A stretch of DNA of 32,314 nt, taken from the IMG/VR virus record IMGVR_UViG_3300044971_001481, positions 1 through 32,314 of that record; one strand, 5' to 3'. Of the stretch, positions 29,121-29,203 are shown one piece after another. Position numbers and translations under genes: made by a program. The notes beneath the pieces were generated by a model. The model was not told where the DNA came from. It saw only the letters and a program-made list of their open reading frames with translations, and did no database searches. Every line of letters begins with the position of its first letter. Position 1 is the first letter of the stretch. The stretch is from a virus.

Positions 29121-29203
29121 CTTGACTTGGTGACACTGTTATTTATGTTAAAAGGAGACATTGCTGCCTCCTCATTTTACCTGAAATGTGTCACCAAGTC
29201 AAG
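29121..29203 (-). promoter_or_regulatory. 16-bp inverted repeat with late promoter in its loop, upstream of GIY-YIG gene
   Basis: CTTGACTTGGTGACAC (29121-29136) is an exact complement of 29188-29203; the loop is 51 nt. On the minus strand the loop holds CATAAATA (29147-29140) just before the 3' arm. RNA coming from thyX would pair the arms and cover the AAGAG ribosome binding site next to the ATG. RNA begun at CATAAATA would start inside the 3' arm and be free. A CTAAATA at 29217-29211, overlapping the thyX stop, is a rival late promoter that would include both arms. Confidence 0.75.
29150..29172 (-). terminator. Possible weak terminator after thyX, inside the repeat loop
   Basis: On the minus strand AGGAG (29172-29168) pairs with CTCCT (29157-29153) around a 10-nt loop and is followed by TTTAA. 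The stem is only five bp. It lies after thyX and before the loop late promoter. Confidence 0.35.

Follow-up and report, generated by a model that had tools for sequence, protein, structure and literature searches.

A late-promoter motif enclosed by a perfect inverted repeat before endonuclease-like genes of T4-like cyanophages: a probable late-start hairpin leader

The window analysed here is the whole stretch of 32,314 nucleotides of viral DNA (IMG/VR record IMGVR_UViG_3300044971_001481), and the named records that best match its right end are the T4-like Synechococcus phages S-SRM01 and S-SKS1. Near that end, the gene GIY2 lies between thyX and a regulator gene (Table 1). Its product matches Pfam NUMOD3 (E 5e-17) and PHROG 314, homing endonuclease (E 7e-14), with a further match below the cut-off to NCBIfam TIGR01453; by these profiles it is a putative endonuclease of a homing type. 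In an alignment of 14 sequences the N terminus (FYVYYS..GYIGKR), which we take to be a GIY-YIG-like motif, is near-invariant and the C terminus is variable. A sequence search against solved structures returned nothing at E values up to 1, and the AlphaFold model (pLDDT 46) is too poor to confirm a GIY-YIG fold. Across GIY2 and its relatives (alignment A2) the near-invariant part comprises the N-terminal 90 residues, as if the DNA-binding part had been swapped while leader and catalytic part stayed. Two further endonuclease-like genes, GIY1 and HNH, lie on the same strand. The window also holds a Mom-like DNA modification gene (23982-24572, minus strand; Pfam E 1.5e-25) and a gene with a TnsA-like endonuclease N-terminal domain (21568-22002, plus strand; Pfam E 1e-25).

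Table 1. Positions in the window of the three endonuclease-like genes and the parts of their leaders
Feature	Positions	Strand	Basis or remark
Left late-promoter motif TCTAAATA	29211-29218	-	Sequence; overlaps thyX stop codon
Predicted start of RNA T1	29205	-	From left motif TCTAAATA
5' arm, antisense to endonuclease 5' UTR	29188-29203	-	Sequence, repeat search
Small hairpin P1, 5' arm in stem and loop, bulged in the window	29179-29205	-	T1 fold
Terminator-like hairpin P2, GCAA tetraloop, weak T tail	29152-29173	-	Fold
Inner late-promoter motif CATAAATA	29140-29147	-	Sequence
Predicted start of mRNA T2	29134	-	From CATAAATA
3' arm, extends from position -2 of predicted T2 as far as the ribosome site	29121-29136	-	Sequence, repeat search
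AAGAG, probable ribosome binding site, overlaps 3' arm by 3 nt	29119-29123	-	Sequence
GIY2, free-standing GIY-YIG/NUMOD3 homing-endonuclease-like gene, 215 aa	28467-29114	-	Profiles
Late-promoter motif AATAAATA before regulator gene, overlaps endonuclease stop codon	28468-28475	-	Site comparison
GIY1, second GIY-YIG endonuclease-like gene, 159 aa	387-866	-	PHROG 314 (E 5e-12), phrog_15526 (E 5e-30)
GIY1 leader (type II), 14-bp perfect arms 867-880/934-947	867-947	-	ATAAATA 891-897 in loop
HNH endonuclease-like gene, 124 aa	10218-10592	-	PHROG 3106 (E 1e-25)
HNH leader, 12-bp perfect arms, 9-nt loop	10606-10638	-	ATAAATA 10617-10623

The preliminary description had reported a perfect 16-bp inverted repeat before GIY2 with CATAAATA between its arms, and both are real: the arms are 100% complementary, lie 51 nt apart and form the longest perfect repeat in the window among pairs up to 120 nt apart. 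Its view that so long an arm is unlikely by chance is borne out by 300 dinucleotide shuffles of the window, none of which reached 16 bp (the longest repeat, with loops up to 60 nt, was 14 bp). Repeats of at least 12 bp number six in the window, three of them endonuclease leaders, against a mean of 0.19 per shuffle. Two details require correction. The motif, said to stand directly before the 3' arm, is separated from it by 3 nt (29137-29139); and the spacing of six bases to the ATG, given for the ribosome binding site at the end of that arm, is right for the arm itself, AAGAG ending 4 nt before the ATG. The start positions in Table 1 rest on the late promoter-to-start spacing of T4. The published late motif of S-PM2 and Syn9 is NATAAATA (PMC2984593, in excerpt); it is seen 12 times in the window against 11.3 expected, all 12 on the minus strand and none on the plus strand, and no enrichment of NTAAATA was found in the window either. 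Rfam showed no family at the leaders, in a gathering-score scan of the whole window or in a permissive scan of four loci.

Read-through RNA of the GIY2 leader is predicted to fold at -41.3 kcal/mol (z -7.35; none of 200 shuffles as stable), against -2.7 kcal/mol for the RNA starting at the inner motif, which is a shorter stretch; with 30 nt of coding sequence included, the predicted values are -49.6 and -8.3 kcal/mol. Predicted folds of the other two leaders give -33.8 kcal/mol for read-through (116 nt) and -2.2 for late-start RNA (36 nt) at GIY1, where the leader arm abuts the ATG, and -26.2 (91 nt) and -2.5 kcal/mol (37 nt) at HNH. At each of these three minus-strand genes a repeat (16, 14 or 12 bp) contains or abuts ATAAATA just before the ATG. 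Among the ORFs of the window (ATG start, 60 aa or more), 11 have NTAAATA at -46 to -10, and only these three have a repeat of at least 8 bp, the other eight reaching 7 bp at most.

The arrangement is kept in many relatives. A protein search retained 80 viral-contig loci for GIY2, and 41 with a start codon and upstream DNA were scored, the other 39, mostly partial or remote matches, lying outside the scoring. In all 41 (22 distinct upstream sequences) the late motif lies inside a perfect repeat of at least 8 bp, and in all 41 a second, left NTAAATA is found about 100 nt upstream (-112 to -92). The hairpin is likewise kept at 18 of 18 HNH loci (11 distinct upstream sequences). The 80 GIY1 loci divide into 45 with repeat and late motif, four with the late motif only, 30 without a late motif and one without an ATG; 34 of the 79 scoreable relatives thus fail the criterion, 30 of them having no late motif. 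Among named phages, S-SRM01 has a GIY2-type gene with the leader and the isolate Sf-CH5 a GIY1-type gene with a 13-bp repeat, and the GIY2-like genes of S-PM2 (p178), ACG-2014f (two records), Sf-CH5 and RN05-S are without a leader. The design is therefore not universal among endonucleases, exceptions being found in S-SRM01, in the GIY1 family and among GIY2-like genes. A type II leader, with GGGC...GTAAG[TA]CCC around the 5' arm, has 25 distinct matches among the collected loci, mostly from relatives of GIY1; all 25 precede GIY1-like genes, with the late motif between. In this motif (GGGC-stem-loop-GTAAG[TA]CCC) the internal-loop letters are fixed and the stem and loop variable; Rfam scans gave no match to it, and it may bind a protein. 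In L079, a near relative of the window, positions 1450-1506 resemble a glutamine riboswitch, just below the gathering score.

GIY2 cassettes are found behind several different genes, and their terminator-like hairpin moves with the endonuclease. The preliminary description was right that such a hairpin lies in the loop, but not that it might be the terminator of thyX. It had also proposed a comparison with relatives lacking the endonuclease, in which a surviving repeat would have spoken against a common arrival; in the one empty relative tested there, S-SKS1, the thyX/regulator junction is empty and the repeat absent. The thyX junction of S-SRM01 holds another endonuclease, and this repeat is absent from it; the gene (14565-15116; L001 3436-3987) is GIY1-like and has a late motif and no hairpin. 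Alleles without endonuclease exist also in the window itself, at the DUF1825/gp32 junction, which is filled in S-SRM01.

Where the empty thyX site of S-SKS1 has one ATCTAAATATTTTTATAC, the insert in the window is bordered by TAAATA on either side (at the positions of AATAAATA and TCTAAATA). Five other insertions before a gene with a similar start (MPxYPIINK) likewise end in AATAAATA, and the insert thus re-creates, at its right border, a late-promoter motif for the gene behind it. Such re-creation is not general, because the motif is missing from the empty DUF1825/gp32 sites of the window and S-SKS1. We also considered that the left NTAAATA might always be a host promoter duplicated by insertion; this fits thyX, as judged from S-SKS1, and was rejected on the same empty DUF1825/gp32 sites, where the left motif therefore probably belongs to the cassette. 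Of the six leaders in S-SRM01, four have a left motif that overlaps the stop codon annotated upstream, and the gaps in the other two are 4 and 61 nt.

Sequence changes in the arms preserve their pairing. RNAalifold, run on a plain MAFFT alignment of 35 leaders, found the core of the arms unaided, with double-sided changes in seven of seven pairs. In the 13-pair arm helix, 88.7% of cells are paired against 65.4% in shuffles and at most 41.5% in slid registers, and double-sided cells number 102 against 29.8 in shuffles. The pairs with a double-sided change (11 against 9.6; 108 of 500 shuffles as high) are not clearly above shuffles, and further pair types are not above them (462 of 500 as high). 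Because the leaders are related, such shuffle counts are not probabilities. At one arm position on the side of the ribosome binding site, G-U occurs more often than any other pair (GU 18, GC 5, AU 2, unpaired 10), which points to RNA pairing. The pairing of the small hairpin P1 holds in 84.5% of cells, with double-sided changes in four of six pairs; P1 and arm core together are 89.9% paired against 70.2%, with 80 double-sided cells against 22.8 in shuffles and further pair types again not above shuffles. In the alignment (A1) five rows from S-SRM01 begin 1-3 nt off the left motif, and the paired columns counted lie downstream.

The specificity of a late motif within a repeat of at least 8 bp was gauged on wider sets of ORFs. 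The collected loci contained 197 distinct ORFs with NTAAATA at -46 to -18, and the repeat was present in 60 of the 66 that look endonuclease-like by a crude pattern against 19 of the 131 others, in a sample biased by the fetching of loci as endonuclease relatives. Ten of these 19 exceptions have at least 11 bp and look like endonucleases themselves, six by profile and four by resemblance to the start of profiled relatives; the remaining nine, judged by eye, include six unlike endonucleases. A scan of the whole S-SRM01 genome led from 681 ORFs to 75 with the motif and 14 with the repeat, of which ten are of endonuclease type, eight with profile support and two (18053 and 77663) mainly by resemblance; the former is homologous to GIY2, and the latter, whose profile support is weak, resembles GIY1. 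Another of the ten, 142306, adjoins the late sigma factor gene and may encode recombination endonuclease VII instead of a homing enzyme. For the remaining four of the 14, including one with 10 bp, neither annotation nor profile indicates an endonuclease, and nine of the 16 S-SRM01 genes listed as endonucleases fail the criterion. In the same phage, the gene at 162245 (L196) has a 10-bp hairpin, seen by eye, whose first base is the final one of the late motif, which places it outside the criterion, and a 17-bp repeat before an endonuclease VII-type gene at 126172 (L195:26172) includes the ATG. The scan of T4 led from 468 ORFs to 35 with the motif and three matches (soc, 26 and 51), none an endonuclease, and I-TevII and segE reach 7 bp by the same measure; at 8 bp or more the criterion has no diagnostic power in T4.

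The leader of GIY2 belongs to what we call type I, in which a terminator-like hairpin separates two late-promoter motifs arranged in tandem. When the collected loci were scanned for pairs of late motifs at a distance of 50-95 nt, flanked by matching arms, there were 38 distinct matches, or 36 after removal of one without a gene and one duplicate; with those of S-SRM01 there are 41 type I leaders, 27 of them nonredundant. In S-SRM01 the scanner found six places, all before endonuclease-type genes; it found none in T4, and one match in total over 20 shuffles of S-SRM01. The genes behind type I leaders are of at least five kinds: GIY2, GIY1-like, a GIY-YIG-like group beginning MTSQSPR, a homing group beginning MNYLK, and other HNH genes. 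A covariance model gave 24 matches at E values up to 0.01 in 10 of the 23 records searched (for one record, 150 of 184 candidates were scored), including six in S-SRM01; the other nine named phages, T4 among them, gave none. Eleven of these matches (nine distinct sequences) lie at new places, and all eleven, together with the known L219, have a GIY-YIG-like ORF behind them (two of the eleven by profile, the rest as judged from their start sequence). As far as the motifs and folds tell, what is new here is a portable leader that precedes at least five kinds of endonuclease gene. As to annotation in S-SRM01, two GTG starts (51291 and 192466) fall within type I leaders and have probably been misassigned, and the gene at 62515, annotated as translation initiation factor 2, has NUMOD3 repeats.

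In the 36 leaders folded, T1 is predicted to form P1 followed by the terminator-like P2. In the 27 nonredundant leaders the helix of P1 always opens within the first 4 nt, and the mean z of P1 is -1.65, which is only modestly stable. The P2 stem is present in all 27, with T tails of at least 5 of 8 in 19 of them and UUCG (9) or GNRA (8) tetraloops in 17; the T tail in the window is weak (4 of 8), and a simple terminator scan missed this P2. At a fixed spacing of 5 nt from the motif there is a purine at +1 of T1 in 27 of 27 and of T2 in 26 of 27, T1 being predicted to start on the first base of P1 or beside it, and T2 at the 3' arm.

Taken together, these results make it probable that the repeat serves as the leader through which a mobile cassette, with a free-standing GIY-YIG endonuclease gene, controls its expression by a T4-style late-start hairpin. 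Such a cassette would have inserted between thyX and the regulator gene of a T4-like cyanophage. In RNA reading in from thyX, or starting at the CTAAATA of the thyX stop, the arms would pair and hide the ribosome site, and the endonuclease would not be translated; predicted folds and covariation both place RNA structure over that site in the longer transcripts. Once the late sigma factor is present, RNA would start at CATAAATA inside the loop, lack the 5' arm, stay open and be translated, so that the enzyme would be made late. We infer promoter use, the translational block and the late timing. The preliminary description had held that the CTAAATA at the thyX stop, if it were the sole late start, would speak against its reading, a view that needs changing: the CTAAATA is not simply a competing start, since an RNA starting there is predicted to begin at the small hairpin that contains the 5' arm, and the left NTAAATA is a conserved part of the leader.

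A reading compatible with late-start control, to which we give slightly less than an even chance, is that a small RNA, T1, of 46-63 nt runs from the left late promoter to the terminator and starts at P1. For the six leaders of S-SRM01 the predicted T1 lengths are 52-58 nt. The P1 loop, which carries the 5' arm, would bind in trans to the initial 8-16 nt of T2, the endonuclease mRNA, and the duplex would then zip through P1 and cover the ribosome site, so that endonuclease output is damped as copies of the element rise. The predicted complementarity of the T1 loop to the ribosome site region of T2 is specific to a degree: over the 27 nonredundant leaders, cognate T1:T2 duplexes average -22.7 kcal/mol against -9.4 for mixed ones and rank first in 22 of 27 rows and 21 of 27 columns, and all six T1 of S-SRM01 prefer their own mRNA, but the specificity is incomplete, T1 of 192520 pairing with T2 of 18053 at -19.8 kcal/mol in the same phage. 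The folds of P1 and P2, the start purines, the tetraloops and the double-sided changes of P1 are conserved, and the 5' strand of P1 has alternative predicted partners in its own 3' strand and in the ribosome-site side of the 3' arm. Against this, the conserved spacing is partly inheritance, since the leaders are related, the terminator in the window is weak, P1 is not strikingly stable, and pairing in cis within read-through RNA explains the complementarity of the arms without a second RNA. We know of no such same-strand leader small RNA that has been seen. In the same spirit, and leaning slightly against, we regard type I as a possible two-RNA device common to several unrelated families of cyanophage homing endonuclease, in which a same-strand late antisense RNA made upstream would form its own preferred pair for each element and act as a self-brake.

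Three other explanations fare less well. The repeat surrounds a promoter and could be a DNA operator for a dimeric repressor, for example the endonuclease repressing its own late promoter, as reported for I-TevI, which autorepresses at a site over its late promoter (PMC2988022, in excerpt). A protein site would keep its sequence, whereas the arm sequence varies freely while pairing is kept and G-U is common at one position, so we think this very improbable. It is also very unlikely that the 5' arm serves at the same time as a sigma-70 promoter giving early expression: on the minus strand TTGACT and TAAAAT, 17 nt apart (29202-29174), match the consensus at 10 of 12 positions, but four promoter-like sites were found against 3.0 expected, and leaders of the L021 type, inspected by eye, do not retain the hexamers. 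That the repeat, which stands directly behind thyX, is an ordinary thyX terminator or a product of chance is barely credible given its 51-nt loop and the shuffles. We reject a plain thyX terminator on the grounds that the hairpin accompanies the endonuclease to sites behind other genes and that the empty site of S-SKS1 lacks the repeat, and chance on the shuffles.

The same hairpin mechanism has been reported for I-TevI, I-TevII, I-TevIII and segB of T4 and mobE of Aeh1, a handful of endonucleases (PMC2988022, in excerpt). As in those leaders, the gene is of an endonuclease type and RNA structure is predicted to cover the ribosome site in longer transcripts. In the reported cases late RNA begins downstream of the 5' arm (same source), as it would here if the inner motif acts as a late promoter. 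The present leaders differ in their longer perfect arms (12-16 bp in the window, against 7 for the T4 I-TevII hairpin), in that one kind of leader serves several endonuclease families, and in the upstream late motif, the P1 around the 5' arm and the terminator-like hairpin of type I. The last of these and the left promoter motif are conserved additions, not described for the T4 cases in the excerpt of PMC2988022, in which the word cyanophage is also absent. Our results are best read as an enlarged version of T4-style control, one that in T4-like cyanophages spreads together with endonuclease genes. Among the matches listed in the open-access literature (titles and starts of abstracts), we found no such leaders in cyanophages.

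The hairpin design is common among relatives of three cyanophage genes of the GIY-YIG and HNH types, in which the arms diverge and stay complementary, and its occurrence across families argues that silence of the endonuclease until late in infection is a general need of these selfish genes. The design should delay the cutting enzyme until late infection and may also yield a small RNA brake. If the type I leader does make the small RNA, a homing endonuclease would be under a brake of copy-number style, of which no description was found among the matches listed in the open-access literature. The leader is also a sequence signature by which unannotated endonucleases can be found.

The c4 antisense RNA of P1/P7 reportedly originates from the same strand as its target. 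Like the proposed T1, c4 is a short structured RNA with loops thought to be complementary to the ribosome site region of an mRNA; it targets an antirepressor mRNA, whereas T1 is predicted only and would have its own late promoter (PMC12197685, in excerpt). RNA-OUT of IS10 offers another likeness, that of a mobile element whose antisense RNA pairs with the translation start of the mRNA for its mobility enzyme (RNA-IN) with an effect that grows with copy number, as proposed for T1; RNA-OUT comes from the opposite strand, whereas T1 would be same-strand (PMC5006887, in excerpt). In cyanophages, CfrI of S-PM2, at psbA/F-CphI, is a regulatory RNA linked to a homing endonuclease gene, and unlike T1 it is about 225 nt long and lies on the opposite strand (PMC2984593, in excerpt); it is annotated in AJ630128. 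At the start of F-CphI a late motif and a terminator-like hairpin occur without a flanking repeat of at least 8 bp. The leaderless p178 of the same phage (L188 1310-1939) has a GIY2-type N terminus, and its gene overlaps F-CphI.
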